64,000 nt of DNA, from assembly GCA_017623655.1 (NCBI GenBank), contig JAGAON010000009.1, positions 310,001-374,000 of the forward strand. The letters run 5' to 3'. The stretch's first letter is position 1. Every line of letters starts with the position of its first letter. Source of the stretch: Prevotella sp. (GTDB lineage Bacteria; Bacteroidota; Bacteroidia; Bacteroidales; Bacteroidaceae). The translations under genes were made by a program, and so were the position numbers. Below, one piece after another: positions 3,178-59,146 of the stretch. Under the pieces are notes generated by a model that saw nothing but the letters and a program-made list of their open reading frames with translations, was not told the origin of the DNA and searched no databases.

Positions 3178-3262
3178 GTAATTTGCATCTGATTACCATG
3201 TAAACAGCACCTGATTACGATGCAATTTGCACCTAACCACACGGTAAACAGCACCCTTTTGC
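3178..3262. repeat. Palindrome array A (4 units, 85 bp)
   Basis: Four 19-bp units at 3178-3196, 3200-3218, 3222-3240 and 3244-3262, separated by 3-base spacers cat, gat, acg. The family consensus unit is GTAATCAGCACCTGATTAC. Unit 3 is the most degenerate, and the last unit ends in the outer variant CAGCACCCTTTTGC. It lies in the 377-base gap between 3028 and 3406, after the terminator. The rest of that gap shows no gene. Confidence 0.9.
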
Positions 3263-3405
3263 AAGACGGCCCGATGCCGGCATGCCAGCATTGGACTCAC
3301 GTTTTAATAACATTGGAGCTGGCATCATACAATAAAATAAAAATGTGCACGTTTATAAATATATTACATTCAAAACAAACAAAGGAAAAGGCCGCCTAAT
3401 ATAGC

Positions 3406-4239
3406 ATGAATCTTAAATTAATGTATATAACAAACAATCCGTCTGTCGCACTGATAGCAGAAAAATATGGCACGGATTGGATTTTTGTTGACCTTGAGAC
3501 GAGAGGCAAAGAGGAACGCCAGAAAGGCATGAACACGGTGAAGTCACAACACACCATAGCCGACGTGAAAGCCGTAAAGGATGTTCTCACGTCATCAGGA
3601 CTCTTGGTTCGCATTAACCCCATATATGAGGGGACACAAGACGAGGTTGACGCCGTAATCAGCAACGGGGCGGACATCATCATGCTGCCCATGTGGAAGT
3701 CCGCGGCAGATGTACGCACGTTCCTGTCCTGCGTCAACGGCAGATGCAAAACCATGCTGTTGCTGGAAACGCGTGAGGCTTACGAGTGTCTTGACGAGGT
3801 ACTGGCCATCAGCGGCATAGACAGCATACACATAGGGCTCAACGACCTGCACCTCAGCTATGGGCAGACATTCATGTTTGAACCATTGGCAAACGGCATG
3901 GTGGAAGACATCTGCACACGCATCAAGGCCGCGGGGATACCATACGGTTTCGGCGGCATAGCAAGGATAGGTGAGGGTACACTACCCGCAGAGCGGATAG
4001 TGATGGAACACTTCCGTCTCGGCTCAACTCAGGTAATCCTTTCACGGAGTTTCTGTGACGTGGCTTCATGCAAAGATGTCAACGAAGTGGAAGATGTATT
4101 CATGAAGAACATGAAGAAACTGCGTGGCTTCGAGGCTTCCATGGAATCTACGACTGACGAGGCATACGACACCAACAAGGCAGAAGTGGCAAAGAAGGTT
4201 GCGGAGATTGTCAACATTATCAAAAGCAAGCAAGAATGA
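3406..4239 (+). CDS. HpcH/HpaI-family aldolase
   Basis: A 277-residue protein of the HpcH/HpaI (class II pyruvate aldolase, citrate-lyase-like) TIM-barrel family. The residues expected in HpaI active sites are present: His49 (KSQHT), Arg69 (VRI), metal ligands Glu121 (LLLETREA) and Asp147 (IGLND). The family adds or removes pyruvate-like donors from aldehydes, giving 4-hydroxy-2-oxo acids. The gene overlaps the PLP decarboxylase gene by four bases (ATGA), so the two are translationally coupled. An aminotransferase lies further down the same strand. Its product is probably a precursor for a polysaccharide decoration (inference). A catabolic role is possible but is not supported by any neighbour. 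Confidence 0.85.
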   Translation: MNLKLMYITNNPSVALIAEKYGTDWIFVDLETRGKEERQKGMNTVKSQHTIADVKAVKDVLTSSGLLVRINPIYEGTQDEVDAVISNGADIIMLPMWKSAADVRTFLSCVNGRCKTMLLLETREAYECLDEVLAISGIDSIHIGLNDLHLSYGQTFMFEPLANGMVEDICTRIKAAGIPYGFGGIARIGEGTLPAERIVMEHFRLGSTQVILSRSFCDVASCKDVNEVEDVFMKNMKKLRGFEASMESTTDEAYDTNKAEVAKKVAEIVNIIKSKQE

Positions 4240-5447
4240 AGATTAGTCCGTCCATTATAAAAGAATTGAGGAAAGACTACGGTGAGGCTTTCTATCTATT
4301 GGACTCCGAGCAGTTCAGCAAGAACTTCGCTGAACTGAAAAAGGAGTTTTCGGCCATATACCCTAACTTCAACATCGCATACTCTTACAAGACCAACTAC
4401 ACGCCCAAGCTATGCAAAATAGTCGATGAATCGGGCGGTTATGCCGAAGTCGTTTCGGAAATGGAGCTGGAGATTGCCCGAAGGATAGGCGTGAAGCCTG
4501 AAAGGATAATATGGAACGGCCCTATAAAGACCCCCGCTATCGCAGAAGCATTCCTCCTCGCCGGCGGAACGGTGAATATTGATTCCGCCGAGGAGGCAGC
4601 TTTTATTATGGATTTGGCGGCACACCATAAGGACAAGACACTGAGCGTGGGCATCCGCTGCAACTACGATGTAGGCGACGGTGTGGTGTCACGCTTCGGT
4701 TTCGACACAAACGGACATGACTTCATGGAGGCGGTGACGTTAGCCACCACTACGCCCAACATCAAGTTCAGGAGTTTGCAATGCCACTTTGCCAAAAGGC
4801 AGATAGAATACTGGCCGGCAAGAGCCAAGGGTATGGTCGCCCTCATAGACAGCTTGGGTATCATACCGGAAAGGATAGACATAGGTGGAGGATTGTTCGG
4901 CAAGATGGACGACTCACTGAAAGCGCAGTTCGCTTCTGAAATACCGGACTATGCCGCTTACGCCAAAGCTGCGGCGACAGTCTTCGCAGACTATTTCAAA
5001 GACCATGACGTTAAGCCCGAACTGCTGATAGAACCCGGTTCCGCCATAGTGGGCGACTGCATGAAATTCATCGGGACAGTAAAAACAATAAAATGCGTAA
5101 GAGGCAAGGCCATAGTCTCCGTACTTGGCAGCCAGAAGAACATCAGCATGAGCGGAGTGAACCCGCCGCTTAAGATTATCCCCATGGGGGGACACCGGAA
5201 GGAATATACTGACGCCGACCTCGTTGGCTTTACCTGCATTGAAAACGATGTACTGTACCACGGTTACAACGGCAGCCTTGCACATGGAGACGCTGTTGTC
5301 ATAAGTAACTGCGGGTCATATTCACTGGTTATGAAACCGCCATTCATCCTTCCCAACTTCCCCGTGATAGACATCTGCGGAGAAAAGGTTGAGGTAATAA
5401 AAAGAGGCGAAACCTTTGATGATTTGTTCCACACGTTCAACTTTTAG
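4236..5447 (+). CDS. Fold-type III PLP-dependent decarboxylase (LysA/ODC-like)
   Basis: A 403-residue protein of the alanine racemase/ornithine-diaminopimelate decarboxylase superfamily. Seen: the PLP lysine Lys52 in YSYKTNY, the DIGGGL phosphate-binding loop near residue 218, EPGSAIVGD near residue 268, and CIEND near residue 330, at the position of the catalytic CxESxD motif. It is clearly different from the lysA gene at 40187, so it is not the housekeeping enzyme. It should decarboxylate a D- or L-amino acid. Coupled by ATGA overlap to the HpaI aldolase and followed 4 bases later by a sugar transferase gene, it probably acts on an aldolase/aminotransferase-derived amino acid. The substrate is unknown. 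Confidence 0.83.
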   Translation: MKISPSIIKELRKDYGEAFYLLDSEQFSKNFAELKKEFSAIYPNFNIAYSYKTNYTPKLCKIVDESGGYAEVVSEMELEIARRIGVKPERIIWNGPIKTPAIAEAFLLAGGTVNIDSAEEAAFIMDLAAHHKDKTLSVGIRCNYDVGDGVVSRFGFDTNGHDFMEAVTLATTTPNIKFRSLQCHFAKRQIEYWPARAKGMVALIDSLGIIPERIDIGGGLFGKMDDSLKAQFASEIPDYAAYAKAAATVFADYFKDHDVKPELLIEPGSAIVGDCMKFIGTVKTIKCVRGKAIVSVLGSQKNISMSGVNPPLKIIPMGGHRKEYTDADLVGFTCIENDVLYHGYNGSLAHGDAVVISNCGSYSLVMKPPFILPNFPVIDICGEKVEVIKRGETFDDLFHTFNF

Positions 5448-5451
5448 GGAT

Positions 5452-6132
5452 ATGTATAAGGTCAACCTGTTCTTAAAACGAGTTTTCGACATAGTCTCAT
5501 GCCTGTGCGCGGTAATCCTGCTGATACCGGTATGGATTATAGTTGCCATCGCCATAAAATTAGACTCCAAAGGACCTGTATTCTTCAAACAGGACAGGCG
5601 CACAAAAGACGGGCGCATCTTCCGGATGTTAAAATTCCGCTCCATGGTGACTGGCGCAGAGCAGACCGGCACCGGGCTTTTCTCATACGACAATGACCCC
5701 CGGGTAACGAGAGTCGGGGCGTTTCTGCGCCGCACAAGTATCGATGAATTTCCGCAATTCTTCAACGTTCTGAAAGGTGACATATCGGTAGTGGGACCAC
5801 GGCCATGCGTATCTTACGAATTGGGAGACTTTGACACCCTCAACAAGAAATTCAAAAAACGCTTCCAAGTGAAAGGAGGCATCACCGGACTGGCACAATG
5901 CAAGGGACGCAACGAGAACTCATGGGCGGAAAAAGCCACGCTGGACGGCGAATATGTTGATTTATTCAAAAAAGAAGGTGTATGGATTGACATAAAGATA
6001 CTATGGTGGTCACTCGCCAAGGTATTTCAAAATTCCAATATCAATGAACAGATAAAGGAGGGATGCACTGCTGACGAATCGGCCGAACTATCGGATGAAG
6101 AGGTAAAACGCATTGCCCACATTCCCGACTAA
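5452..6132 (+). CDS. Monotopic phosphoglycosyltransferase (bacterial sugar transferase)
   Basis: A 226-residue protein with the layout of small PglC/WcaJ-C-terminal-type priming enzymes. A re-entrant hydrophobic helix lies at residues 8-36, then FFKQDRR, KFRSM, and the catalytic Asp-Glu dyad D98-E99 in TSIDEFPQ, followed by VVGPRP. It transfers a sugar phosphate to undecaprenyl phosphate to start repeat-unit assembly. The ATG at 5452 was chosen because it precedes the membrane helix directly and does not overlap the decarboxylase gene; an upstream in-frame Met at 5416 would. A second enzyme of the same superfamily is encoded at 9820. Confidence 0.9.
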   Translation: MYKVNLFLKRVFDIVSCLCAVILLIPVWIIVAIAIKLDSKGPVFFKQDRRTKDGRIFRMLKFRSMVTGAEQTGTGLFSYDNDPRVTRVGAFLRRTSIDEFPQFFNVLKGDISVVGPRPCVSYELGDFDTLNKKFKKRFQVKGGITGLAQCKGRNENSWAEKATLDGEYVDLFKKEGVWIDIKILWWSLAKVFQNSNINEQIKEGCTADESAELSDEEVKRIAHIPD

Positions 6133-6164
6133 TTTACGATAAGAACAACAAGACTCCTGTAATT

Positions 6165-7094
6165 ATGAAATATGATGTAGCTAACAGAGTCATCTGGCTA
6201 AAAGGCCAAATATTGAATGTTAACGATGCCAGAATAAACGTGCTGTCTCCAACGTCGCAGTTTGGGCTGAACGTATTTGAAGGAATCCCCGGTTACTGGA
6301 ACGAAGAAGAGCAGCAGCTGTACATGTTCCGCCTGAACGACCATTACGACCGTCTGCTACGCTCCGCAAAGCTTCTGCAATTAGACTGCACATACACGAA
6401 AGAAGATTTCAAGAAAGCCCTTATAGACACAGTAAAGGCCAATGAATATTACGAAAACATATCTGTGCGCCAGACGCTTTTTGTGGATGGTTTTGGTTCA
6501 TGGGGTTCAGAAAGCCCTGTGGAAATGTTCGTTGCACCTATCCCACGCGGTAAGACCAGCGCAGAATACAATAAGAAAGGGTTGAACTGTTGCGTAACCT
6601 CATGGAGAAGAATAAGCGACGACAACCTGTCACCGCGCGTAAAGTGCGGAGCAAACTACATAAACAGCCGCGTGGGACAGCGTGAGGCACTGCGCAATGG
6701 CTATGACACCTGCATATTCCTCAACAGGGACGGGAAAGTGGCGGAAGGCCCGGGAAGTTGTTTCTTCATGGTGAAGGACAACACACTGGTTACTCCGCAG
6801 CTAACAGACAGTGTGCTGGAAAGCATTACACGTGACACTATCATCCGTCTGGCAAAAGAAGAATTGGGATTAGAGGTAAAGGAACGAACCATTGACCGCA
6901 CGGAACTGTATCTGGCCGATGAAGCATTCCTCTGTGGCTCTGCTATGGAGATAACACCGATTTACACCATAGACCGCTACAAAGTGGGAACAGGAGAACA
7001 GGGAAAGGTGACAAAGGAATTACATCTCACTTATCTTGACTGTGTAAGGGGGAAGCTGGGAAGCAAAAAGGAATGGCTGACGGTCGTATATTGA
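6165..7094 (+). CDS. Class IV (branched-chain-like) aminotransferase
   Basis: A 309-residue fold-type IV PLP enzyme. The PLP lysine is Lys160 in PRVKCGANYIN, and EGPGSCFF near residue 195 and FLCGSAMEITPI near residue 255 are characteristic of the BCAT/D-amino-acid transaminase/aminodeoxychorismate lyase group. It lies 32 bases after a sugar transferase gene and just before a glycosyltransferase gene, so a general amino-acid biosynthesis role is less likely than a dedicated one. It may aminate the 2-oxo acid made by the HpaI-like aldolase (inference). A housekeeping branched-chain aminotransferase that sits here by chance cannot be excluded. Confidence 0.82.
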   Translation: MKYDVANRVIWLKGQILNVNDARINVLSPTSQFGLNVFEGIPGYWNEEEQQLYMFRLNDHYDRLLRSAKLLQLDCTYTKEDFKKALIDTVKANEYYENISVRQTLFVDGFGSWGSESPVEMFVAPIPRGKTSAEYNKKGLNCCVTSWRRISDDNLSPRVKCGANYINSRVGQREALRNGYDTCIFLNRDGKVAEGPGSCFFMVKDNTLVTPQLTDSVLESITRDTIIRLAKEELGLEVKERTIDRTELYLADEAFLCGSAMEITPIYTIDRYKVGTGEQGKVTKELHLTYLDCVRGKLGSKKEWLTVVY

Positions 7095-7099
7095 ATATC

Positions 7100-7867
7100 A
7101 TGACACAGTATAACAACAGGACGGTCTCGGTGATAATACCGGTATATAACGCAGCACGATTCATAGGAGCGACGTTAGAATCTGTACTCAACCAATCTTA
7201 CAAAGATATAGAAGTTGTTTTGGTTGACGACTGTTCTGCGGACGATTCCGCGAAAATCATTGCGGAGTATTCCAACAGGCATCCCTATATAATCTACCAC
7301 AGACTTAAAAAGAACGAGGGAGCTGCGGTGGCACGCAATACCGCCCTGCATCTTGCCGGCGGACGGTATGTGGCTTTTCTTGACAGTGACGACCTGTGGT
7401 GCAGTGACAAGATAGAGAAGCAGTTGGCATTCATGGACGAGAAAGATGCCGCCATGAGCTGCACTGCCATGGACACGATGGACGAAAATGGGAACCACCT
7501 CGGTGCGGTAAGGAGGGTAAAGGATATTATAGAATACGATTTCCTGCTCCACAACACGATGATTGCCACCTCCACAGTGATAATAGACCGCAACAAAACG
7601 GGCAATTTCACAATGCCGCTACGCCGTGGCGGACAGGACTATGCCACATGGTTGATGCTGATGCGCAACGGTTCTGTGTTCTATGGACTTGACGAGGTGC
7701 TGACACATTACCGCATCTTGGCAGGTTCGCTGTCATCAAACAAATATAAAAGTGTAAGGCAGGTATGGCAGATACAGACGCAGGACGAGAACATTCCACG
7801 GTTATCGGCAGCCATTAACGTATGTTTCTTCATTGCCAACGCTTTTGCCAAGCATTTCCTGAAATAA
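7100..7867 (+). CDS. GT2 glycosyltransferase
   Basis: A 255-residue family 2 glycosyltransferase. Seen: VSVIIPVYNAARFI at the N-terminus, VVLVDDCSADDS, and FLDSDDLW (the DxD metal motif near residue 90), followed by GGQDYATWLMLMRNG, the usual acceptor-side ED/QDY region. The ATG at 7100 starts right before the first beta strand. An in-frame Met at 7073 would overlap the aminotransferase gene and add a tail without homology. The protein should add a sugar to the lipid-linked repeat unit at the cytoplasmic membrane. Confidence 0.88.
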   Translation: MTQYNNRTVSVIIPVYNAARFIGATLESVLNQSYKDIEVVLVDDCSADDSAKIIAEYSNRHPYIIYHRLKKNEGAAVARNTALHLAGGRYVAFLDSDDLWCSDKIEKQLAFMDEKDAAMSCTAMDTMDENGNHLGAVRRVKDIIEYDFLLHNTMIATSTVIIDRNKTGNFTMPLRRGGQDYATWLMLMRNGSVFYGLDEVLTHYRILAGSLSSNKYKSVRQVWQIQTQDENIPRLSAAINVCFFIANAFAKHFLK

Positions 7868-7906
7868 GAATATAGCATCTATCTTAAAAATAGATTGTTC
7901 ATAATA

Positions 7907-9823
7907 ATGAAATTCATACATAAACTCATACACTGGTACTTCAGCAAGGATGCACTGCCTTATTGGTGTATCCTTACGGTGGACTGTGCCATACTGCTGT
8001 TCTTTTTCTTTTTCGGATATTATTGCGTCCTTGGCGGCAACGGCGTCGTAAACTACTTCTGGCCAAAGTTCTTCTCGTTGTCAGTGTGCATGGTGTTCTT
8101 CCTTATTGGATTCAAGACATTCCACACTTACTCCAACATCGTACGTTACTCTTCATTCATAGACCTTTACAACGTGGCTTTGGCAAACCTTGTCGGCTCC
8201 GCCTGCGTGCTGTTGGTGCGTATTATTTTCTTTGAACAGGATAACGTAATATTCCCCGGCCTGCGGGTCACGCTGTTCACTTTCTGTTTTGGAACACTTG
8301 CCATGTGGGGATGGCGCGTGCTGGTAAAGACACTGTTCGACATAGGCAACCTTAACGGCAATACGAAATACATATATATATATGGAACAAAGTCCGGCGG
8401 TGTTGGCCTTGCAAAAAGCCTGCGGAACCAAAGACCCGCCAAGTATATGCTCAAAGGATTCGTGTCTCCTGACAAGGAGATACAGCATCGATTCCTCATG
8501 GGCGTACCGGTTTTTCCTTCTGACATAAGGCTTGTGCCACGTATGCTGGACAACAATATCAAGGCATTGATGGTATCTCCGCTCATCACGGAGGAATTCC
8601 GTAACAACCAAAGGCTCATAAGCGACCTTACGGATGCCGGCATAAAGATATACATGATGCCTGAAGCTCAAGAATGGGATGGAACATCGGAGATAGACCA
8701 CAGGCAAATGCTGCACCGTGTTGAGATTGAAGACTTGCTGCCGCGTGAACAGATAGACATCGACATGGAGGCGGTAGGCAATCTCTTGCGCGACCAAAGC
8801 ATTCTTATAACAGGTGCGGCAGGCAGTATCGGCAATGAGATGGTCAAGCAGATAGCTACCTTCCATCCAAAGAAGATGATCCTGATAGACCAGGCGGAAA
8901 CCCCGATGCACAATACAAGGCTGATGATGGCGCAATCTTTTCCAAACGTTGAGTGCTCTACCATCGTGACAAGCATTACCAACAAGACACGCATGGAGAG
9001 GATATTCAGCAAACACCATCCGGATTATGTGTTCCATGCCGCAGCCTACAAGCATGTACCGATGATGGAGGACAACCCCGCCGAGGCAGTAATGAACAAT
9101 GTCTATGGCACCCGTGTCATTGCGGACCTTGCCGTGAAATATAACACAAAGAAGTTCGTGATGATTTCTACCGACAAGGCTGTCAACCCGACCAACGTCA
9201 TGGGGTGTTCCAAAAGAATATGCGAGATTTATACCCAGTCCCTCAATGCCGCAATAAAGGCAGGCGAGGTAAAGGGAACCACACAGTTCGTCACGACCCG
9301 GTTCGGCAACGTTCTCGGTTCCAATGGCTCCGTGATACCAATCTTCCGCGAGCAGATACGCAACGGCGGCCCTATAACCGTGACACATCCGGACATCATA
9401 CGCTTCTTCATGCTCATTTCAGAAGCCTGCAAGTTAGTGTTGCAAGCCGGCACATTCGGCAACGGAGGTGAAATCTTTGTATTTGACATGGGCAAGCCCG
9501 TACGCATAGCAGACCTTGCAAAACGCATGATAGCATTGTCAAACGCCAAGGACATCGAGATAAAATATACAGGACTGCGCGAAGGCGAGAAACTATTTGA
9601 AGAAGTGTTGAGCGAAGCAGAGAAGACGCTGCCCACCGCGCATCCGAAGATTCATGTCGCAATGGTGAGAGAATATCCTTACAAGGAGGCTTTACGCAAT
9701 GAAGAACGCCTATGCGAAGTATGCAAGACCTACGACAACATGGAAATTGTAAAAGTAATGAAAGAGATTGTTCCAGAATACATCAGCAACAACTCTGTGT
9801 ATAGCCAATTAGACAAAATATGA
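7907..9823 (+). CDS. PglF/WbpM/CapD-type membrane nucleotide-sugar dehydratase
   Basis: A 638-residue protein. The N-terminal 150 residues contain four predicted membrane helices, then a first Rossmann-like region, then a short-chain dehydrogenase domain with TGAAGSIG from residue 302. The catalytic STDK (421-424) replaces the YxxxK of ordinary SDR enzymes, as is typical of the UDP-GlcNAc 4,6-dehydratase group. It should make UDP-2-acetamido-2,6-dideoxy-4-keto-hexose, the precursor of bacillosamine, fucosamine or quinovosamine. The ATG at 7907 is preferred over a TTG at 7895. It overlaps the next gene by four bases, coupling it to the priming transferase that would use its product. Confidence 0.92.
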   Translation: MKFIHKLIHWYFSKDALPYWCILTVDCAILLFFFFFGYYCVLGGNGVVNYFWPKFFSLSVCMVFFLIGFKTFHTYSNIVRYSSFIDLYNVALANLVGSACVLLVRIIFFEQDNVIFPGLRVTLFTFCFGTLAMWGWRVLVKTLFDIGNLNGNTKYIYIYGTKSGGVGLAKSLRNQRPAKYMLKGFVSPDKEIQHRFLMGVPVFPSDIRLVPRMLDNNIKALMVSPLITEEFRNNQRLISDLTDAGIKIYMMPEAQEWDGTSEIDHRQMLHRVEIEDLLPREQIDIDMEAVGNLLRDQSILITGAAGSIGNEMVKQIATFHPKKMILIDQAETPMHNTRLMMAQSFPNVECSTIVTSITNKTRMERIFSKHHPDYVFHAAAYKHVPMMEDNPAEAVMNNVYGTRVIADLAVKYNTKKFVMISTDKAVNPTNVMGCSKRICEIYTQSLNAAIKAGEVKGTTQFVTTRFGNVLGSNGSVIPIFREQIRNGGPITVTHPDIIRFFMLISEACKLVLQAGTFGNGGEIFVFDMGKPVRIADLAKRMIALSNAKDIEIKYTGLREGEKLFEEVLSEAEKTLPTAHPKIHVAMVREYPYKEALRNEERLCEVCKTYDNMEIVKVMKEIVPEYISNNSVYSQLDKI

Positions 9824-13551: not shown

Positions 13552-13589
13552 CATAACCACTTGATAACCAACGGCAAAAAGATACGGTT
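13552..13589. repeat. Conserved flank next to array B
   Basis: Contains CATAACCACTTGATAACC, close to CATAACCGCTTGGCAATC beside array F (from 42612) and to bases beside array A. All three start 37-39 bases before the first palindrome unit. Confidence 0.5.
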
Positions 13590-13674
13590 ATAATCAGCAC
13601 CTGATTACCTCGCAAACAGCACCTGATTACATTGTGATCAGCACCTGATTGCACGGTAATCAGCACCCTTTTAC
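13590..13674. repeat. Palindrome array B (4 units, 85 bp)
   Basis: Units at 13590-13608, 13612-13630, 13634-13652 and 13656-13674 with spacers ctc, att, acg. Units 1-3 carry the CAGCACCTGATT core and unit 4 ends with the outer variant CAGCACCCTTTTAC. The array lies between the peptidase gene and the GH43-like gene, both on the plus strand. Confidence 0.95.
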
Positions 13675-18446: not shown

Positions 18447-18553
18447 ACAAAAGGGTGCTGATTACAGTGTAAACAGGTGCTGATTACAATGCAAACAGGT
18501 GCTGATTACAATGCAAACAGGTGCTGATTGCGTTGCAATCAGCACCTGTTTGT
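18447..18553. repeat. Palindrome array C (5 units, 107 bp)
   Basis: Units at 18447-18465, 18469-18487, 18491-18509, 18513-18531 and 18535-18553 with spacers agt, aat, aat, gtt. It is the only five-unit array. Units 2-4 are nearly identical (CAGGTGCTGATT core), which suggests unit duplication. It lies between convergent genes and is followed 14 bases later by the composite REP-like element. Confidence 0.95.
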
Positions 18554-21332: not shown

Positions 21333-21362
21333 TTGTTTTTCGCATTTTATTTTGTAACTTTG
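21333..21362 (+). promoter_or_regulatory. Promoter of the carboxylase operon
   Basis: TTG at 21333-21335, a 19-base spacer and TAACTTTG at 21355-21362. Transcription would begin just before the riboswitch, leaving a leader of about 270 bases before the first start codon. Confidence 0.75.
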
Positions 21363-21369
21363 CACCGCA

Positions 21370-21590
21370 ATTTGCATTTGGTTCTCAATACCGCAACAGT
21401 ATGCGGCATACGAGCTAAGACGGGAACGCAGTGTGATTCTGCGACATTACCCGATGCTGTGAGTCCATTTTGAGGTAAGCAAACATTGTCACTGTCCCTG
21501 CGCAAGAGACTTTTTGCTCTTGCCCCAAAGGGGTGGGAAGACACGCTTTCCTTAGGATTAAGTCAGAAGACCTGCCATCTGCAAGATACA
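21370..21590 (+). promoter_or_regulatory. Cobalamin (B12) riboswitch
   Basis: The 5' conserved core reads GCTAAGACGGGAACGCAGTG at 21414-21433, followed by the ATTCTGCG stem partner and CCCGATGCTGTGAG at 21450-21463. The invariant 3' block AGTCAGAAGACCTGCC is at 21561-21576. These are the hallmark elements of the adenosylcobalamin/cobalamin riboswitch class in the correct order and spacing, with a variable domain in between. It starts right after a promoter and ends about 65 bases before the biotin carboxylase ATG. Family members normally lower expression when B12 is present. Exact ends are approximate. Confidence 0.9.
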
Positions 21591-21642
21591 AAAGAGTGTC
21601 TGCGGGACTATGGGCGCTCGGGAAAACAAAACACATACATAC

Positions 21643-25342: not shown

Positions 25343-25427
25343 GCAATCAGCACCTGATTACGACATAAACAGCACCTGATTACACAGTGATTTGGTGCTG
25401 ATTATCATGTAATCAGCACCCTTTTGT
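25343..25427. repeat. Palindrome array D (4 units, 85 bp)
   Basis: Units at 25343-25361, 25365-25383, 25387-25405 and 25409-25427 with spacers gac, aca, cat. Unit 3 is inverted in its core (GGTGCTGATTAT) relative to units 1, 2 and 4, showing that each unit can flip independently. It sits between the convergent carboxylase operon and the lipoprotein gene. Confidence 0.93.
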
Positions 25428-35559: not shown

Positions 35560-35665
35560 GTTGTAGGGCTCAGATTGACAGGTCACATCGCCAGTGACCG
35601 CATCCTGTTCCAACCCGAAAGACCTTTGCCCCAAAACCTTCAACCATCAAAACCTCAAAGAGAAA

Positions 35666-36394
35666 ATGATAGAACTCATACCGGCCATAGACCTCATCGA
35701 AGGCAAATGCGTGCGCCTTACGAAAGGCGACTATGACAGCAAGAAAATCTACAACGAAGACCCCGTGGCGCAAGCCAAGGAGTTCGAGGCTCTCGGCTTC
35801 AAGCGCCTGCATATCGTTGACCTTGACGGCGCGAAGAGCAAGCATATAGTGAATGACGCGGTGCTGAAAGCCGTGACCGACGCCACAAGCCTCACCGTTG
35901 ATTTCGGCGGAGGCATAAAGACCGAGACGGACATACGCAAGGCTTTCGACGCGGGAGCGGCGATGGTGACCGTAGGTTCGGTGGCGGTGACACAGCCGGA
36001 GATGTTCCTCTCCTGGCTCGACACGTTCGGTGCGGAGCGCATAATACTCGGCGCCGACGTGAGAAACGGCAAGATTAGCATCAACGGATGGAAGGAAGAT
36101 TCCGCCGAAGACCTGCTGCCGTTCCTCAAGACATACATCGACCGCGGAGTAAGAAACGTACTCTGCACGGAGATTTCCAAAGACGGCACGCTGGCGGGAC
36201 CTGCCATTGGCCTCTACGAACGCATCATGGCGGAATATCCGGAGATACACCTCATAGCCTCGGGCGGCGTGTCATGCACGGCGGACATCATGGCTCTGGA
36301 CAGGAAGAACATACCGGCCGTAGTGTTCGGAAAGGCATACTACGAGGGGCGCATCGACCCGGCGGAATTGAAAGACAACCGTATGCTCCCGTAA
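35666..36394 (+). CDS. hisA: ProFAR isomerase
   Basis: A 242-residue (beta-alpha)8 barrel. The catalytic Asp9 is in ELIPAIDLI, with the phosphate-binding repeats DFGGGIKTETDI and IASGGVS, and ISKDGTLAGP (second catalytic region). It converts ProFAR to PRFAR, the substrate of HisHF. The start at 35666 was chosen because the barrel's first strand begins there. Its stop codon TAA (36392-36394) lies inside the first unit of palindrome array E. Confidence 0.95.
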   Translation: MIELIPAIDLIEGKCVRLTKGDYDSKKIYNEDPVAQAKEFEALGFKRLHIVDLDGAKSKHIVNDAVLKAVTDATSLTVDFGGGIKTETDIRKAFDAGAAMVTVGSVAVTQPEMFLSWLDTFGAERIILGADVRNGKISINGWKEDSAEDLLPFLKTYIDRGVRNVLCTEISKDGTLAGPAIGLYERIMAEYPEIHLIASGGVSCTADIMALDRKNIPAVVFGKAYYEGRIDPAELKDNRMLP

Positions 36395-36475
36395 AAGGGT
36401 GCTGATTACCATGTAAAAGAGGCCTGATTACACTGTAATCAGGTGCTGATTGCAAGGTGAAAGGGTGCTGATTGC
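36391..36475. repeat. Palindrome array E (4 units, 85 bp), inside the his operon
   Basis: Units at 36391-36409, 36413-36431, 36435-36453 and 36457-36475 with spacers cat, act, aag. Unit 2 has the rarer core GAGGCCTG. It overlaps the last codons of hisA and lies between hisA and hisF, so unlike the others it is within an operon and will be transcribed. Confidence 0.95.
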
Positions 36476-42611: not shown

Positions 42612-42650
42612 CCATAACCGCTTGGCAATCAGCGGTAAAGAAACACAAAC
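42612..42650. repeat. Conserved flank next to array F
   Basis: CATAACCGCTTGGCAATCAG... matches the flank of array B in about two-thirds of positions and lies at the same distance from the first unit. Confidence 0.5.
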
Positions 42651-42735
42651 GCAATCAGCACCTGATTACCTCGCAATCAGGTGCTGATTACAGTGTAAAC
42701 AGGCCTCTTTCACGATGCAATCAGCACCCTTTTAC
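42651..42735. repeat. Palindrome array F (4 units, 85 bp)
   Basis: Units at 42651-42669, 42673-42691, 42695-42713 and 42717-42735 with spacers ctc, agt, gat. It mixes all core types: CAC, GTG, GCC and CAC in order. It sits in the 306-base gap between the two glycosyltransferase-like genes. After it come only the promoter near 42845 and AT-rich bases. Confidence 0.95.
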
Positions 42736-47043: not shown

Positions 47044-47128
47044 ACAATCAGGTGCTAATAACATTGCAATCAGGTGCTGATTACCATATAATCAGCACCT
47101 GATTGCAATATGATTAGCACCCTTTTAC
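47044..47128. repeat. Palindrome array G (4 units, 85 bp)
   Basis: Units at 47044-47062, 47066-47084, 47088-47106 and 47110-47128 with spacers att, cat, aat. Units 1-2 have the GTG core and units 3-4 the CAC core, so the array is nearly symmetric about its middle. It lies between convergent genes. Confidence 0.95.
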
Positions 47129-47162
47129 AATGGCATTTGTAACACATTGAATCGCAACGTCT

Positions 47163-47259
47163 TGTAGGGACGCACCTTAGTGCGTCCTAATCGCCCCAGT
47201 TCCCGCATTGGCGGATATGTCTTCCCGTATTTTCGGACGTACCAAGGTGCGTCCCTACA
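47163..47259. repeat. REP-like inverted pair, family R3 (copy 1)
   Basis: TGTAGGGACGCACCTTAGTG at the left (47163-47187 with continuation) and its reverse complement with two differences at 47235-47259. Each arm can form its own hairpin (GGACGCAC/GTGCGTCC). Copy 2 is at 61677-61751. This type of GTAGGGACGCAC sequence is widespread in bacterial intergenic regions. Confidence 0.85.
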
Positions 47260-53201: not shown

Positions 53202-53228
53202 CACCATAATTAACTCAAAATTACACCT

Positions 53229-53906: not shown

Positions 53907-53941
53907 AACCCGTCGCCACGGCACGGCTGTTTGCCTGCATT

Positions 53942-54026
53942 GTAAAAGGGTGCTGATTACCGTATAATCAGCACCCTTTTACAATGTAATCAGCACCTGT
54001 TCGCACGGTAATCAGCACCCTTTCAG
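53942..54026. repeat. Palindrome array H (4 units, 85 bp)
   Basis: Units at 53942-53960, 53964-53982, 53986-54004 and 54008-54026 with spacers cgt, aat, acg. The last unit ends in CAGCACCCTTTCAG and overlaps the 3' end of the leftward ATPase gene: its TGA stop (54012-54014 on the plus strand) and last residues are read from the unit. Confidence 0.95.
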
Positions 54027-55313
54027 AAAGTAAGTGGATGCGGCATATAGCGGGATGTTTGTCATCCACCCCTGTTCCCGGTAGTCTGACATGGAAAAAC
54101 GCAGGCCGTGCATACCCTGATGCGCCGCCACAAAGGTTGACAACGACTTTGAACGCAGGTTCTCTTCCGCCTTTGCCTCAATGGGAACAATGTTGCTGCC
54201 ATGCTGAATCAGGAAGTCAATCTCCAGCTTCGCTTCGTTGCTGAAATAAAAAACAGATGTATTGTATGCGGCAACCAACTGGCTCATCATGTAGTTTTCG
54301 GTAAATGCTCCTTTCGCTTCCCCCATGCCATTGTTTGCCACAAGCATTATTTCAGGCGGCGTCTCGCTCATGGCACCCAGCAGACCGCAATCAAGCAGGA
54401 ACAGTTTGAAGCTCGAAATATCGGCATAAAACTTCAAGGGCATCTTGGGGGTAGTAACTCTTTCTGACTTATATACCAGTCCTGCGTCTATCAACCACTG
54501 TATGGCGACCTCGAAATCTTTTGCCCGTCCCCCGGGTTTTGCGACACCATAGATGAACTTCTTGTTCTCCTTTACCAGTTGTGAAGGCATGGACTGCCAC
54601 ACCATATTAATGCGGTTGGCCTCGCTTGTCGGCACATGCTTTGACATATCTTTCCGGTAAGTGTAGAGAATGTTGTCCTGTATTTCCCTTACCTTGTTGG
54701 CATCGTTGGTTTCAATGAACCCCTGTACCGCTTCGGGCATACCTCCGACGAAATAATATTCGCGCAGACACTTGATGTATTCCGTTCTCAACAGCCTTAT
54801 GGTGTCCCAGTCTTTGCTCCTCAATATATCTGCCATCTGCCTTTGCCCTTTGGCCAACAGGAACTCATCGTAGGTCATTGGGTAGATATTCAGTATGTCA
54901 ACCTTGCCTACGGGGAACGATTCGCCCTTGTGCATGGCTATGCCGAGCAACGAGCCTGCAACGGCGACATGATATTGCGGAGCGTTCTCGCAAAAGTATT
55001 TCAAGGCCGACAAGCCCCTTTTCGACTCCTGAATCTCGTCTAATATAATCAATGTCTTCCCCGCTTCGATAGACTGTCGCGTTATAGCCCCTATTGCCAA
55101 GACTATGCGTTGTATGTTGTAGTCCTGCGTGAACAGGTCTTTTGCCATCTCATTGTCATCGCAGTTGATGTAAGCCACGTTGGAGAACTCCTGCTCGCCG
55201 AAGCGTTTAAGGATATAAGTCTTGCCTACTTGGCGTGCTCCGGCCAGCACAAGCGGCTTGCGATGCTCTTTGTTCTTCCATGCTTTGAGCTGTTCTAAAA
55301 TGTTTCTATACAT
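54012..55313 (-). CDS. AAA ATPase with DUF4143 domain
   Basis: A 433-residue protein of the AAA_14/DUF4143 family. Walker A is LAGARQVGKTY (Lys31), Walker B is LIILDEIQES near residue 98 and the sensor-like AVAGSLLGI follows. A winged-helix region lies near residues 220-290 and a C-terminal DUF4143 nuclease-like domain near 320-433 (EIDFLIQHGSNIVPIEAK, a PD-(D/E)XK-like ExK). These are abundant accessory genes in Bacteroidetes with unclear function. The stop codon and last residues (LKGC) come from array H, so the C-terminus may have been trimmed or extended by the array's arrival. Confidence 0.88.
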   Translation of the reverse strand: MYRNILEQLKAWKNKEHRKPLVLAGARQVGKTYILKRFGEQEFSNVAYINCDDNEMAKDLFTQDYNIQRIVLAIGAITRQSIEAGKTLIILDEIQESKRGLSALKYFCENAPQYHVAVAGSLLGIAMHKGESFPVGKVDILNIYPMTYDEFLLAKGQRQMADILRSKDWDTIRLLRTEYIKCLREYYFVGGMPEAVQGFIETNDANKVREIQDNILYTYRKDMSKHVPTSEANRINMVWQSMPSQLVKENKKFIYGVAKPGGRAKDFEVAIQWLIDAGLVYKSERVTTPKMPLKFYADISSFKLFLLDCGLLGAMSETPPEIMLVANNGMGEAKGAFTENYMMSQLVAAYNTSVFYFSNEAKLEIDFLIQHGSNIVPIEAKAEENLRSKSLSTFVAAHQGMHGLRFSMSDYREQGWMTNIPLYAASTYFLKGC

Positions 55314-55348
55314 CTGGTTTCTATGTTGTTTCTGTTACTTTCCGATTG

Positions 55349-55380
55349 CAAAGATACACTTTTCCTACCGAACTTGCAAG
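55349..55380 (-). promoter_or_regulatory. Promoter of the AAA ATPase gene
   Basis: CAAAGATA at 55349-55356 (minus strand TATCTTTG) and a minus-strand TTG 20 bases upstream (plus CAA at 55377-55379). The first of three 19-bp repeats (55355-55373) fills the spacer between the two elements. Confidence 0.7.
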
Positions 55381-55439
55381 AAAAAATTACACTTTTCCTA
55401 CCGAACTTTATATAAAAAGCAACATTTTTCCTACCGAAC
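55355..55439. repeat. Three 19-bp direct repeats, 33-bp period, at the ATPase promoter
   Basis: Copies at 55355-55373, 55388-55406 and 55421-55439. The common sequence is ACTTTTCCTACCGAAC; copy 3 differs by two or three bases. The period is exactly 33 bp, three helical turns, so all three face the same side. The first copy overlaps the -7 element. They look like operator sites for an autoregulator, possibly the ATPase's own winged helix (inference). Confidence 0.85.
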
Positions 55440-55589
55440 ATACATCATTACGACATAAAGACGGTAGGCTATAAGGCGGATTTAGGGCTACTTTCCCGCA
55501 TCCATGAGCCCCTTGTCCGCATCAGACCGGCAGTTAACCGGATGTTTAGAAGTCCGTTATTTCATGCTGTTTCTACATTCTCCCGAAAG

Positions 55590-55625
55590 CCGTTTGTAAT
55601 CAGTTGATACCCAATGGGTAAAAAG
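55590..55625. repeat. Possible orphan copy of the array flank
   Basis: GTAATCAGTTGATACCC and AATGGGTAAAAAGTA resemble the flank seen beside arrays A, B and F, but no array follows; an R1 element starts at 55647. The rest of 55440-55589 shows no recognisable element or gene. Confidence 0.3.
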
Positions 55626-55646
55626 TATGATTGTACACCCCGATAG

Positions 55647-55740
55647 CAGGCATTGCATCTTGTCGTACAACTATCTCTTCTTCAATGTATTCTTTGTTAT
55701 TACCTCCCTTGTCCGTTGTGCGGCAGAACGCCGTGCCTAC
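55647..55740. repeat. REP-like inverted pair, family R1 (copy 2, degenerate)
   Basis: Left arm 55647-55672 (GCAGGCATTGCATC...) and right arm 55715-55740 (GTTGTGCGGCAGAACGCCGTG...) align with copy 1 at 18568-18661 with several mismatches. It is followed by the same linker and an R2 element, showing that R1+R2 travel or arose together. Confidence 0.7.
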
Positions 55741-55789
55741 TGGCGCCATCTATACCGGTTTATTGTGTCCTGTCATTTAATTGGCGTAT

Positions 55790-55870
55790 GTAGAGACGAT
55801 GTATTACATCGTCTCCGCAACCGAATCATGCCGCATTATTTTTTGAGGCGATGTGGTACATCGTCTCTAC
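55790..55870. repeat. REP-like element, family R2 (copy 3)
   Basis: Hairpins with cores GATGTATTACATC and GATGTGGTACATC and GAGACG-type arms. It is the same size as copy 1 (81 bases). It lies 40 bases after the stop of the leftward GH2 gene. Confidence 0.8.
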
Positions 55871-55909
55871 AAGCGGACAGACGGACAATGCCCTTCGTCC
55901 GGATATTGC

Positions 55910-58279
55910 CTATCGGCATTTTATCCCTATGCTCCGGGTGAGCGATTTGCCGTCGATGTCGGCGGTAACATTTACCGCGGCCTTACCGCTTTTGCCGTTA
56001 TTGCGCACGACAGCCAAGGCACGTCCGTGCCAAACACGGTGCGTATTGTCATAATAAGGGTCGGTATCCTTTATGTCGGCGTTGCCGAGTCCGATGAGAG
56101 TGACATTCCCCGTAGTGGCGACAGAGAGACGGTTGTCGGCCACAGGCACAAGGTTTCCGTCGGCATCCACGCATTCTATCGTGACAAACGACAGGTCCTG
56201 ACCGTCGGCGGAGATGACGCTACGGTCGGCGGTGAGGCGTATGCCGGCCACTTTACCCGCCGTTTTCAGTTCCGCCGTCTCCCTTACCGCACCGTTTTCC
56301 ACACCCTCGGCACGCAACACACCGGGCATATAGGGCAGCGAGAAGGAAGCCATCATCTTTTCAGCGGGTGCCTCGCCCACAAGTTTGCCGTTGAGATACA
56401 GGCGCACAAGCGGGTAACGCGAGCAGACCTCCACGGTTATCGGCTTGCCCTCATGCCCCGACCAGTTCCAGCATTCGAACGTGGGATGCGTGCCCCACAG
56501 GGTTGTCTTGATGTTTCCCCTGTACCCTTCCGGCTCGCGCACGGCCATGAACAGCCTCTCGCCGTTGTCGTTCCAAAGCATGGAACGGTAATGGCCTATC
56601 GGTTTCCGCAAGCCGGTCAGATCGATGTCACCGCAATATGCGGCGTGCCACGGATAGAGAGGACGGCTGTAATGCTCGCCCGGCACATCGCCATCGTAAT
56701 ACCAACGCCCTATGCCCGACTCGCCAAGGTAGTCTATGGCGGTCCATACAAAGTCGCCGATGACGTAGGAATGGTCGCGCGTCATGACGTAGTTGTCCCA
56801 CGCGTCACGCGGATATGACTCCGTCTGCATCATCACCCTTTCGGGAACACGTCCGTGATCACCCTCCGCCTTGTGAATCATGTAGTTGTAACCGACGATG
56901 TCATGCTCCGCCGCCAGCGGGTCATAGATTTCCCAGTCACTGTCCCAAGCGGCAAGAGCCTGCGTTACCGGCCGCGAGGAATCGATGCGGCGGCACACCG
57001 TAGCCAGCATGGCCGCATCCTTGACGGCCTGTGGTTTCTTGCGTTCTATAATCTCATTGCCTATGCTCCAGCAGAAGATGGAAGGATGGTTGACGTCCCG
57101 CTTCACCATGCGGGCAACGTCATCCTCCGCCCATTTGTTGAACAACAGGTGATAATCGTGCCTGTTCTTACTGTCGCGCCAGCCGTCAAAAGCCTCGTCT
57201 ATGACCAAAAGTCCAAGGCGGTCACAGGCGTCGAGGAATGCCTCGGAGGGCGGATTGTGCGATGTACGCACGGCGTTGAAGCCGGCATCTTTAAGCATTT
57301 CCGCCTTGCGATACTCCGCACGGTCATACGCCGCGGCACCGATTATGCCGTTATCGTGGTGCACACAGCCGCCGTTGAGCACCATCCGCTTTCCGTTCAG
57401 GCGGAAACCGTCGGCGGCGGAGTATGAGATTGTGCGGAAACCGAACGTCTGTTCCACCTCGTCAAGCACCTTTCCCTTTTCCCTTACGGTTATCTTGGCG
57501 GTGTAAAGACGCGGACTATCCACGCTCCACGGTGCGGCATCGGGCACACGCAGCGTCATGTTCACCTTCCCGGATGCCTGCGGAGACAGCGTTATCGCCT
57601 CCGTCTTGGCCGCTCCTTCCACCTCAGCTGTTACTTGCAGGGCGCGGGTTCCGGCGGAAACATTATCCACTTCCACCTCAATCCTTGCGGTATTGAGGTC
57701 GGGTGTCTGTATGCCCACACCCCAGTCGGCCACCTTTACATCGGCGGTCTCTATCAGCCAGACGTTGCGGTAGATGCCGGAACCGGAATACCAACGGCAG
57801 TTTTTCTGCCGGGAGTTATCCACCTTGACCACTATTTCGTTGTCCCCCTTTATTATATAAGGTGTAATATCCACGAAGAAGGAGGAGGAGCCGTAAGGGT
57901 GTCCGCCGGCGTTCCGGCCGTTGACAATGACCTGTGACCGCTCATAGACGCCCTCAAAATACAGTTTATATATCTTGTCCTCCGCTTTCTTTGCCACATT
58001 CAGCGTCTTGCGGTATATGCCATAGCCGCCGGGAAGATAGCCGCCGTCGTTGCCGGGAGCGGCGTTGCGGTCGAAAGGTTGCGATATGCTCCAGTCGTGG
58101 GGCAGGCATACCGGCCGCCAGTCATCGGCGGGACTTGCGGCATTGGCAAACCGTGCGCTGTCGGCAAGGAGGAAGTTCCAGCCGTCGTTAAACAGTGTCT
58201 TGCGTCCGACGGCATGGCTTTGGCAGACCGTTGCGGAAATGATGACAGCGGACAGAGCCATCTTGAAAATCGCATTCAT
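55910..58279 (-). CDS. Secreted GH2 beta-galactosidase-like enzyme
   Basis: A 789-residue family 2 glycoside hydrolase with a signal peptide (residues 1-23). It has a sugar-binding jelly roll (about 25-190, YGIYRKTLN, GVYERSQVIVNGRNAGGHPYG), an Ig-like domain, a TIM barrel (about 300-600) and C-terminal Ig-like domains. The acid/base is Glu409 in SIGNEI and the nucleophile Glu487 in QTESYP. It probably releases terminal beta-galactose or a related sugar from glycans in the periplasm. It has a single-gene arrangement and lies 69 bases downstream of the GtrA gene on the same strand. Confidence 0.9.
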   Translation of the reverse strand: MNAIFKMALSAVIISATVCQSHAVGRKTLFNDGWNFLLADSARFANAASPADDWRPVCLPHDWSISQPFDRNAAPGNDGGYLPGGYGIYRKTLNVAKKAEDKIYKLYFEGVYERSQVIVNGRNAGGHPYGSSSFFVDITPYIIKGDNEIVVKVDNSRQKNCRWYSGSGIYRNVWLIETADVKVADWGVGIQTPDLNTARIEVEVDNVSAGTRALQVTAEVEGAAKTEAITLSPQASGKVNMTLRVPDAAPWSVDSPRLYTAKITVREKGKVLDEVEQTFGFRTISYSAADGFRLNGKRMVLNGGCVHHDNGIIGAAAYDRAEYRKAEMLKDAGFNAVRTSHNPPSEAFLDACDRLGLLVIDEAFDGWRDSKNRHDYHLLFNKWAEDDVARMVKRDVNHPSIFCWSIGNEIIERKKPQAVKDAAMLATVCRRIDSSRPVTQALAAWDSDWEIYDPLAAEHDIVGYNYMIHKAEGDHGRVPERVMMQTESYPRDAWDNYVMTRDHSYVIGDFVWTAIDYLGESGIGRWYYDGDVPGEHYSRPLYPWHAAYCGDIDLTGLRKPIGHYRSMLWNDNGERLFMAVREPEGYRGNIKTTLWGTHPTFECWNWSGHEGKPITVEVCSRYPLVRLYLNGKLVGEAPAEKMMASFSLPYMPGVLRAEGVENGAVRETAELKTAGKVAGIRLTADRSVISADGQDLSFVTIECVDADGNLVPVADNRLSVATTGNVTLIGLGNADIKDTDPYYDNTHRVWHGRALAVVRNNGKSGKAAVNVTADIDGKSLTRSIGIKCR

Positions 58280-58348
58280 AGTGTATTCAGGTTTTAGTTG
58301 TTTACTGTTCGTTGGCTTGTCATAAGTTTGACGCCGCCTCCGCAGGCG

Positions 58349-58798
58349 TTACCGTTTCCGGAACACCACCTTCAATATGGCGAACTGCACAAGCATCGCT
58401 ATACCCATCACGACGAAAGGAGCGACAAGACGGTGCACGCCAAGGCGGAGACACAGTGCGAAGAGGACTATGTGAAGCAGGAAATTGACGGCGTGACTGC
58501 CTGAGAAGCCGATGAAACGGCGCAGCGTAGGCGAGGCGCGGAAGGTGAAGACGCAGGTGAAATAGAAGTTCACGGCGAAGCTGACGACGTAACCTATGGC
58601 GTAGGCCGTGCTTGTGGCGGTGTCACGCGAGGCCACCTTATTTATAATGTCGATGTAGTTGTCTATGGCAATGAGCAACAACAGATACACGCCATAGTGC
58701 ACAGCGGCGGACAAACAGCCGTTGATAATGAAGCGGACGAACTGCGCCTTGCCTGCATCTCCGTCCTTTATACGGGTAATCTTTTGCTTTAACGACAT
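58349..58798 (-). CDS. GtrA-family membrane protein
   Basis: A 149-residue protein with four predicted helices: FIINGCLSAAVHYGVYLLLL, AYAIGYVVSFAVNFYFTCVFTF, HAVNFLLHIVLFALCLRL and VAPFVVMGIAMLVQFAILKVVF. The GYVVSFAVNF motif is typical. GtrA-like proteins are thought to flip or position polyprenyl-linked sugars for cell-surface glycosylation. No cognate glycosyltransferase is adjacent. Confidence 0.88.
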   Translation of the reverse strand: MSLKQKITRIKDGDAGKAQFVRFIINGCLSAAVHYGVYLLLLIAIDNYIDIINKVASRDTATSTAYAIGYVVSFAVNFYFTCVFTFRASPTLRRFIGFSGSHAVNFLLHIVLFALCLRLGVHRLVAPFVVMGIAMLVQFAILKVVFRKR

Positions 58799-58830
58799 AA
58801 GTACGGTATGGCTTTTTATGTTTCAGGATT

Positions 58831-58861
58831 CAAAGGTACACACTTTTTCCGACATGACAAA
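58831..58861 (-). promoter_or_regulatory. Promoter of the GtrA gene
   Basis: Plus-strand CAAAGGTA (58831-58838) is TACCTTTG on the minus strand, with TTTG 19 bases upstream (plus CAAA 58858-58861). Confidence 0.65.
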
Positions 58862-58890
58862 GGGGAAAGGCGGATAAACTGCAAAAAAGA

Positions 58891-59030
58891 AGTTAACGGG
58901 AGTTACAGCTATGCTGTGGAGTTTGCAGGGGATTAACGGACAAATGTTCTTTCACTGACATTCCGGCTATCCTCCGTTAACTTCATACGGCATAAGCCGC
59001 ACAACTCCCTTTAACTCCACGTAACTTCCA
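58891..59030. repeat. AACTCC/GTTAAC-rich inverted repeat region
   Basis: AGTTAACGGGAGTTAC (58891-58906) and GATTAACGGA (58931-58940) are mirrored by TCCGTTAACTT (58973-58983) and by the 10-bp-phased words AACTCCC, AACTCCA, AACTTCC (59003-59029). It looks like a decayed hairpin cluster and has no coding potential. It occupies the middle of the 485-base divergent gap. Confidence 0.45.
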
Positions 59031-59061
59031 TATTCTGTCACTCCCTCTACCCCGTCACTCC

Positions 59062-59146
59062 GCAAAAGGGTGCTGATTACCTTGTAAAAGAGGCCTGATT
59101 GCAGTGTAATCAGCACCTGTTTACAGTGTAATCAGCACCCTTTTAC
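59062..59146. repeat. Palindrome array I (4 units, 85 bp)
   Basis: Units at 59062-59080, 59084-59102, 59106-59124 and 59128-59146 with spacers ctt, agt, agt. It is the only array located between divergent genes, ending 43 bases before the Pho-box-like sites of the response regulator promoter. Confidence 0.95.

Follow-up and report, generated by a model that had tools for sequence, protein, structure and literature searches.

Arrays of short palindromes set in a rigid helical phase recur along a 64-kb stretch of DNA from a Prevotella sp., here called the window (64,000 nucleotides, bases 310001-374000 of contig 5 in a draft genome of 1,928,956 bases and 9 contigs, estimated to be 60% complete). 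Our analysis suggests that they form an undescribed system, which may help organise the chromosome. The phase of the arrays is rigid, one size prevails, they are located at gene ends, they avoid one another in this genome and in a second one of the genus, they keep their geometry with changed words in other species, and they are copied as units. The reading that we favour, to which we give slightly less than an even chance, is that they are DNA-level docking platforms for a cooperative, sequence-specific protein, likely with a job distributed over the chromosome. The main and serious rival is the spread of a selfish element with an exclusion distance.

The genomes considered, 60 of the same genus, are designated by handles (G001, G008, G016, G021 and so on), with the source genome as G000. 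The array counts given for G000 refer to the 464 kb that were read closely, namely the window plus 400 kb, and arrays were searched with a weight matrix for half-sites in alternating orientation at an 11-bp step. The proteins of the window and their relatives point to Bacteroidales. An earlier note on this DNA had described nine arrays in the window, eight with four units (85 bp) and one with five (107 bp), and its coordinates proved exact, as did the 19-bp units, 3-bp spacers and 3-bp centres in all nine. The centres it listed are indeed those found, with CAC and GTG predominant and GGC and GCC rarer, but the list was incomplete, as CAT occurs in the first array. With up to three mismatches, the unit consensus has 36 matches on both strands of the window; 100 shuffles average 0.06 and never exceed 2. 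The matrix search yielded 59 arrays in G000, a density of about one per 8 kb, and 0 in 164 kb of shuffled sequence; at steps of 9, 10, 12 and 13 bp it yielded 0, 0, 1 and 0. Filled out to whole units, 51 of the 59 arrays have four units, three have five, three have three and two have two, and the raw counts give exactly eight half-sites in 48. Over the whole draft, a 30-base pattern (half-site, spacer and unit, up to three mismatches) matched 428 times forward and 441 times in reverse, and 0 times when read backwards.

These regularities bear on the idea that the arrays are functionless minisatellites left by tandem-repeat slippage. This idea could draw on the variation of unit number from two to five and on the difference of exactly 44 bp between the two arrays of an orthologous pair. 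However, exactly four units occur in 51/59 arrays, only the 11-bp step is used, even with the words of other species, the orientation alternates among mixed half-site types, and close neighbours are avoided, all of which makes slippage most unlikely. The view of the earlier note that the architecture is selected is thus sustained by the step control and by other species, where different words recur in this layout. Neither spacer nor step varies; the number of units, with four in 51/59, is not constant.

Half-sites follow the general form C-NNN-T-Y-R-C, most commonly C-NNN-T-T-R-C (CTGATTRC, CTGTTTRC and CCTTTTRC), with TCTTTTRC and CAAATTRC as rarer types, and the unit ends, mostly GYAA/TTRC, belong to the palindrome itself. 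In 303 units, taken from G000 and from part of G021, CTGATTRC is usually paired with another half type within the unit: 20 units are devoid of it against 57.9 expected, and 58 carry two against 95.9 expected. With CTGATTRC on the right, the centre is GTG in 80 units and CAC in 17; with CTGATTRC on the left, it is CAC in 87 and GTG in 6. The centre tracks the side of the CTGATTRC half, and the unit therefore has a direction. Information content is about 0.7-2 bits in half-site columns, 0.10-0.26 in the middle spacer bases and 0.29-1.21 in the outer ones. A CCTTTTAC-type half-site had been said to mark array ends, and so it does in G000, where it occupies one end in 57% of arrays and the other in 80%, against 2-24% at inner positions (49 arrays), the marking form being CCTTTTRC; G021, the nearest relative, has a weaker mark (39% and 23% against 0-26%, 31 arrays). 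The claim that units flip independently stands for the third unit, which occurs both ways (21 against 15), but not for the ends of the 51 four-unit arrays, where inward-facing units prevail over outward-facing ones both in first place (34 against 6) and in last place (41 against 3). Strong units are rarely alone (205 within arrays against 4 more than 60 bp from any array), as a selfish element would also have it. Two lone strong-scoring units are present in the window, at 188-206 and 63924-63942, and their 22-bp neighbours do not extend them; near the first one lies TATCTTTGCAT, which we take to be promoter-like.

A second property is mutual avoidance, examined through the gaps between genes called with a home-made hexamer caller (in G000, G021, G058 and G016). 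Only 2 of 56 neighbour distances in G000 are below 3.4 kb, against a null mean of 16.7 and a least value of 6 in 5000 draws among eligible gaps. Ten further nulls for G000 (free gap length 15-250 bp, with and without size weighting) all gave P <= 0.0017, and at cut-offs of 2, 2.5, 3, 3.4 and 4 kb every P was <= 0.0023. Another array lies within 3 kb of 2/43 eligible gaps with an array and of 27/50 without one (Fisher 1e-7). When gap midpoints are compared at a common 3-kb cut-off, G000 shows 1/46 short distances against 9.8 expected (P 0.0003) and G016 shows 0/34 against 5.2 (P 0.0013); below 3.4 kb, G016 has 1/34 against 6.4 (P 0.004), and the starts of its closest pair of arrays are 3,694 bp apart. 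The coefficient of variation gave a weaker result in G000 (P 0.024), because a few long stretches hold no arrays. From two such stretches on contig 5, each longer than 20 kb, eight long proteins were scanned, all encoded on one strand: six match TonB receptor/plug, SusD or fasciclin domains and two have no match. An 88-kb array-free stretch of G016 (L307-L311, G016:C1:1341932-1430077) carries conjugation genes for TraG, relaxase and PcfJ plus core genes, among ten proteins scanned.

Arrays also have a preferred place relative to genes. In G000, 56 of the 59 are in gaps between called genes and 3 overlap a called gene. Gaps of at least 100 bp hold an array in 18/26 convergent, 34/97 tandem and 3/26 divergent cases (convergent versus divergent, Fisher 4.5e-5), and the distance to flanking stop codons is 50 bp or less in 22/71 cases, against 4/41 for start codons. 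The same order is seen in G021, with 12/19 convergent, 19/73 tandem and 4/19 divergent gaps occupied (Fisher 0.02), and 13 of its 51 arrays lie outside called gaps, many of them close to contig ends. This distribution speaks to the possibility of ordinary operator arrays belonging to the regulon of one transcription factor. The 19-bp pseudo-palindromic units with their 3-bp centre do resemble dimer operators, but so few divergent promoter gaps are occupied (3/26), the neighbour genes in the window are so unrelated and the arrays so frequent, at about one per 8 kb, that we regard this explanation as very unlikely.

Gene ends are also where RNA elements would be expected, and a series of 3'-end hairpins that terminates transcription or protects mRNA had been one of three roles proposed in the earlier note. 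The tests went against it. Across the 303 units, pairing within the unit is below chance at four variable pairs (z -8.1 for 5-15, -4.5 for 6-14, then -3.7 and -2.7), near chance at three, and slightly above it at the innermost pair, 8-12 (z 2.4). As complementarity within units is not above chance, hairpins are seemingly not what is selected. Halves that face each other across a spacer are below chance as well (pair 4-16, z -4.7), and since they behave alike, the pattern is one of half-site-type alternation rather than hairpin avoidance as such. The half match within versus across units is 0.750/0.758 in G058 and 0.593/0.596 in G016. Unit direction shows little bias relative to transcription in tandem gaps (55 versus 45; inner units, 21 versus 24), and a T-run follows 3/118 array ends, which is not the stem-loop and T-run of intrinsic terminators. 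Separate terminator-like sites are found in 7/18 convergent gaps with an array and 2/8 without, and in 7/34 and 9/63 tandem gaps, respectively. At gathering score, Rfam has no family on the nine window arrays, the only match in the window being a cobalamin riboswitch. On the other side, apart from pair 8-12, the mean folding of arrays is more stable than that of re-paired controls (-36.7 versus -33.8), although 18/51 are less stable. Taken together, the pairing, orientation and T-run tests leave RNA hairpins improbable.

Outside the closest relatives, the words of the arrays change and their geometry is kept. The G000 pattern is frequent in three of the 60 genomes of the genus (G000, G021 and G001), a fourth having one match with three mismatches, and the G000 words occur in 0/17 genomes of named Bacteroidales. 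The elongation factor G2 of G000 is closest to that of G021 (98%, on a fragment) and of G001 (92%), followed by that of G008 (88%). A letter-blind search for the geometry at periods 18-27 gave, at period 22, 19 matches in G000 (164 kb), 30 in G021 (378 kb), 3 in G001, 7 in G058, 4 in G016, 3 in G044, and 4 in the AT-rich G010 and 7 in G026, these last two counts including some plain tandem or AT-rich repeats; G008 has instead 6 at period 21. Matches at other periods number 1 each in G000, G021 and G008, and 4 in G026. The words are not the same. Among 13 genomes tested, matches to CGTTTYGC number 420/471 in G058 (backwards control 68/86), 18/17 in G053, 11/17 in G004 and 2/1 in G044, and GTAGAACC at period 21 has 43/45 matches in G008 and 0 in the 12 other genomes tested. 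G008 (L184-L187, L268) is the closest examined relative devoid of the G000 words, and it has at least two other period-21 array families, GTAGAACC../AGTTCTGC and GCGGGTGC../GCAACCGC.

As a one-contig genome, G016 was chosen for follow-up, and 480 kb of it were read with its own matrix, trained, like that of G058, on the same sequences later counted. It holds 38 arrays, mostly of CA[AGT][AGT]TTRC, of which 33 have 8-11 half-sites and 37 are in gaps; two shuffles and steps of 9, 10, 12 and 13 bp gave 0 arrays. In 80 loci of named Bacteroidales there are 29 geometry matches at periods 21-24, some of them one place counted at two periods and some plain tandem or AT-rich repeats. Phased 22-bp palindrome arrays with still other words are seen in L082 (Prevotella conceptionensis 9403948), with three in 22 kb, and in L071, L061, L053 and L052.

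How the arrays change and spread can be followed between G000 and G021, both incomplete (60% and 50%). For nine G000 arrays, both flanks could be aligned to a single G021 contig; an array is there in six cases and missing in three, one of the latter being a weak three-unit call. Unit number can change in whole 22-bp steps: in one orthologous pair, one array lacks exactly two of the inner units (44 bp) of the other, and both end units are retained; two other pairs have five units versus four. Between orthologues, half-sites turn into other allowed half-sites, as judged by eye. Array pairs at different loci reach 83/85 and 92-95% identity, against a null maximum of 0.88, and mostly differ in both flanks, although one flank is alike in the 95% pair and in one 92% pair, and the first 20 bases of one flank are alike in the 83/85 pair. 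Such near-identical arrays with different flanks indicate that the 85-bp array is copied or gene-converted as a unit, so that new copies appear, or are made alike, as entire 85-bp units. Moreover, the G021 array at L250:4836-4920 lies where two places are joined that G000 keeps about 168 kb apart, and this coincidence with a rearrangement suggests that arrays may be recombination points.

These data are the natural ground of a selfish explanation, in which the 85-bp array with its inverted end units is a non-autonomous miniature element, similar to REPINs or miniature inverted-repeat transposable elements (MITEs), moved by an enzyme encoded elsewhere. Gene ends would then be tolerated insertion sites, and spacing would come from target immunity or the loss of close pairs. 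Near-identical pairs at different loci, presence or absence at orthologous sites, the end-cap half-site type and end units that are on average inverted to each other (0.751 inverted versus 0.566 direct in G000) agree with it. However, near-identical arrays could stem from gene conversion, and a constant geometry with changed words across species needs a reason. No target-site duplication of at least 4 bp was found in 51 arrays (0/51), and 2-bp and 3-bp flank matches number 7 and 1, below the shuffled means of 9.5 and 3.2. Pairs of end units agree about as well within an array as between arrays (0.751 versus 0.765 in G000; 0.711 versus 0.697 in G021, within the shuffled range). A lone end unit with up to three mismatches is not present in the 464 kb, the rest of the genome having been searched by pattern only, and an exact degenerate pattern of two half-sites plus a unit, intended for copies on phages, has 0 matches in viral_contigs. 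The array-less G021 places orthologous to window 42651 and 59062 offer no clean joint, since their intergenic sequence is too diverged.

Regarding the enzyme, Y1 matches occur in 35/60 genomes of the genus, out of step with the arrays, and G008 has arrays of its own and 0 Y1 matches. The 60%-complete G000 has one Y1/REP-type transposase gene, located among other palindromes, with a three-unit array about 0.6 kb away, a proximity that is compatible with chance given the array density. This gene (L149:1402-1857, minus strand) lies among GCCCTGAAAGGGC and CCCGGGG palindromes, seen by eye in its flanks at 1200-1400 and 1860-2400, which apparently are a second dispersed palindrome family, and a longer tandem repeat follows the gene, also by eye. 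An origin of the arrays through REP palindromes and their transposases (REP/RAYT) finds no support in these data, within the limits set by incomplete genomes. Overall, the mobile-element role proposed in the earlier note keeps the near-identical arrays with different flanks and the presence or absence at orthologous sites, and lacks a target-site duplication and a partner transposase among what was found; we consider the selfish explanation possible, though clearly short of an even chance.

Among the systems already described, the closest are the repetitive extragenic palindromes (REP) and the bacterial interspersed mosaic elements (BIME), high-copy intergenic palindromic units in alternating orientation that reside mostly in convergent or same-direction gaps (PMC2817692, PMC3733652). 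In the available sections of these papers, binding of DNA gyrase is reported for BIME-2 elements and maintenance by complementary mutations for REP palindromes (PMC2817692), and a GTAG or CGTC tag is placed at one end of the palindrome (PMC3733652). Set against those sections, our arrays are also palindromic, intergenic, alternating and mostly in convergent or tandem gaps (less so in G016), but they have no GTAG/CGTC tag, their palindromes are not maintained by compensatory change, and they show a strict 11-bp step, usually eight half-sites and neighbours rarely closer than 3 kb. In addition, no tie to a REP transposase was seen in the incomplete G000 and G021. REPINs, which are short whole-element copies in dispersed populations, resemble the arrays in this respect, but the arrays are made of four phased units instead of two REP hairpins, and no cognate transposase was found. 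CRISPR arrays, composed of direct repeats and long unique spacers, are excluded by the 3-bp spacers and the alternating half-sites.

Another comparison is offered by BrickBuilt, a MITE of Porphyromonas gingivalis whose available description gives 23-nt direct repeats without spacers, 1 to 22.8 per element, in 19 copies with a leader and a tail (PMC4596501). Going by that description, intergenic location, ends that are inverted (in the arrays, on average), repeat units within the element and a Bacteroidales host are shared, whereas the arrays have a 22-bp period, alternating inverted half-sites and four units in 51/59. As arrays show no target duplication, they fall outside the usual meaning of MITE. 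The PINSR of the Prevotella intermedia group is 188 bp long, one strain having 177 copies and another 184, with about three quarters of the regions common to both and a function given as unknown; the available part of the report describes it as lacking terminal inverted repeats and mentions no phased architecture (PMC4755523). Like the arrays, it is a lineage-specific intergenic repeat, set apart from them here by description and not by sequence. Apart from this comparison by description, the searches made, in sources partly available as excerpts, returned no identity with a catalogued repeat family, which the earlier note had named as grounds for refuting its view. Phased inverted half-site arrays or an exclusion distance are not described in the accessible portions of the literature searched, which lies outside subscription journals and preprints.

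The three roles proposed at the outset were a binding array for a chromosome-organising protein, an RNA hairpin series and a mobile element, and the first is the best fit, though unproven. As a docking platform, the array would accommodate protomers cooperatively along its length, one per half-site and helix turn and all on the same face. The C-NNN-T-Y-R-C half-sites alternate in orientation every 11 bp (usually eight in G000, eight to eleven in G016). The likeliest job would be the absorption of transcription-driven supercoils or the anchoring of chromosome folding, by analogy with BIME-2 and gyrase as given in the available text (PMC2817692). The arrays would thus be BIME-like in place and perhaps in role, whether in supercoiling or in chromosome folding.

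Several observations weigh against the docking-platform reading. The 3.2- and 3.4-kb cut-offs were chosen after the distances were known. For G021, the support for spacing (0/15 distances below 3.2 kb against 8.4) comes from a crude null of uniform placement only, with 3/15 distances at 3.2-3.4 kb, and the gap-based null is not significant there (0/4 testable distances below 3 kb, P 0.24). Close pairs do exist, at 243 and 2,393 bp in G000 and 1,957 bp in G058. The gene-end preference is weaker in G016, with 13/26 convergent, 18/96 tandem and 6/25 divergent gaps (Fisher 0.08 for convergent versus divergent, 0.002 versus tandem), and not seen in the small G058 sample, where arrays occupy 2 convergent, 3 tandem and 2 divergent gaps. 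At the threshold used, the geometry search had 0 matches in samples of G024 (80 kb), G045 (60 kb), G004 and G053, and the lack of matches in the G024 and G045 samples means that the system may not be genus-wide. Finally, near-identical arrays with different flanks and the gains and losses between close species fit a selfish element too, and the exclusion distance also fits target immunity.

The nine arrays of the window illustrate these placements. The first (3178..3262, four units) is in a tandem gap, after a family-2 glycosyltransferase gene and before an HpcH/HpaI aldolase gene, and the second (13590..13674, four units) is in a tandem gap about 70 bp past an M24 peptidase gene. The third (18447..18553) has five units, lies in the convergent gap between the genes for elongation factor G2 and an alpha-L-rhamnosidase, and has an orthologous G021 array of four units. 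The fourth (25343..25427, four units) is in a convergent gap after an mmdA-like carboxyltransferase gene; the cobalamin riboswitch (Rfam RF00174, 75 bits) is at 21362-21593 on the plus strand, just upstream of the gene run for biotin carboxylase and the mmdA-type carboxyltransferase. The start of the fifth (36391..36475, four units) overlaps the final bases of a histidine-biosynthesis gene (open reading frame 35594-36394), and its G021 orthologue is L251:14033-14117. The sixth (42651..42735, four units) is in a tandem gap between glycosyltransferase genes, and the orthologous G021 place has no array. The seventh (47044..47128, four units) occupies a convergent gap between acetyltransferase and GH43 genes. 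The eighth (53942..54026, four units) lies between a tRNA m1G methyltransferase gene and a convergent AAA/DUF4143 open reading frame, whose end it overlaps; the same methyltransferase gene adjoins the G021 array found at the rearrangement joint. The ninth (59062..59146, four units) is the only divergent one, between a GtrA-like gene and a response regulator gene; it is 92% identical to L137:18100-18184, with different flanks, and the orthologous G021 place has no array.

Outside the arrays, a second module (GTAAC..TTGn5CAA..TTGTA or ..GTTA) is found at a fixed distance in 41/108 flanks, against a control-distance mean of 0.57, and it is rarer in G021 (7/63 flanks, control mean 0.32). The position lock was tested over all flanks, and the instances in the window were read by eye: 47139..47166 on the plus strand beside the seventh array (GTAAC..TTGn5CAA..TTGTA, 11-38 bp outside the array end), 13552..13579 on the minus strand beside the second (the second type, TTGn5CAA..GTTA), 42613..42640 on the minus strand beside the sixth (second type), and a possible degenerate one at 3140..3167 on the minus strand beside the first. 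A TGTAGGGACGCACC..GGTGCGTCC palindrome is present in many array flanks, for example to the right of window 47128, and TGTAGGGACGC has 43 copies in the 464 kb, of which 14 are no more than 70 bp from an array, including 10 at a distance of exactly 34 bp. An outer-flank stem was also considered, as some flanks look complementary by eye, yet complementarity is not above that of shuffled pairing.

For dispersed intergenic repeats, copying alone is the usual explanation. A step kept across species, letters that change and copies that stay apart are the expected look of a genome-wide architectural code, and geometry and spacing could set the arrays further apart from the known dispersed intergenic repeats. 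If the arrays are selfish, the family would stand out by its unusual phased design and by the distance over which copies exclude one another, a first clue to its mode of movement. A further proposal, which we hold as a possibility at well below even confidence, is that of a chromosome grid, in which a cooperative protein of fast-changing specificity marks the ends of transcription units every few to about 10 kb with helix-phased arrays. If this were true, selection would keep geometry, number and spacing, not letters, and the arrays would act as a new kind of insulator, loop anchor or gyrase-docking site.

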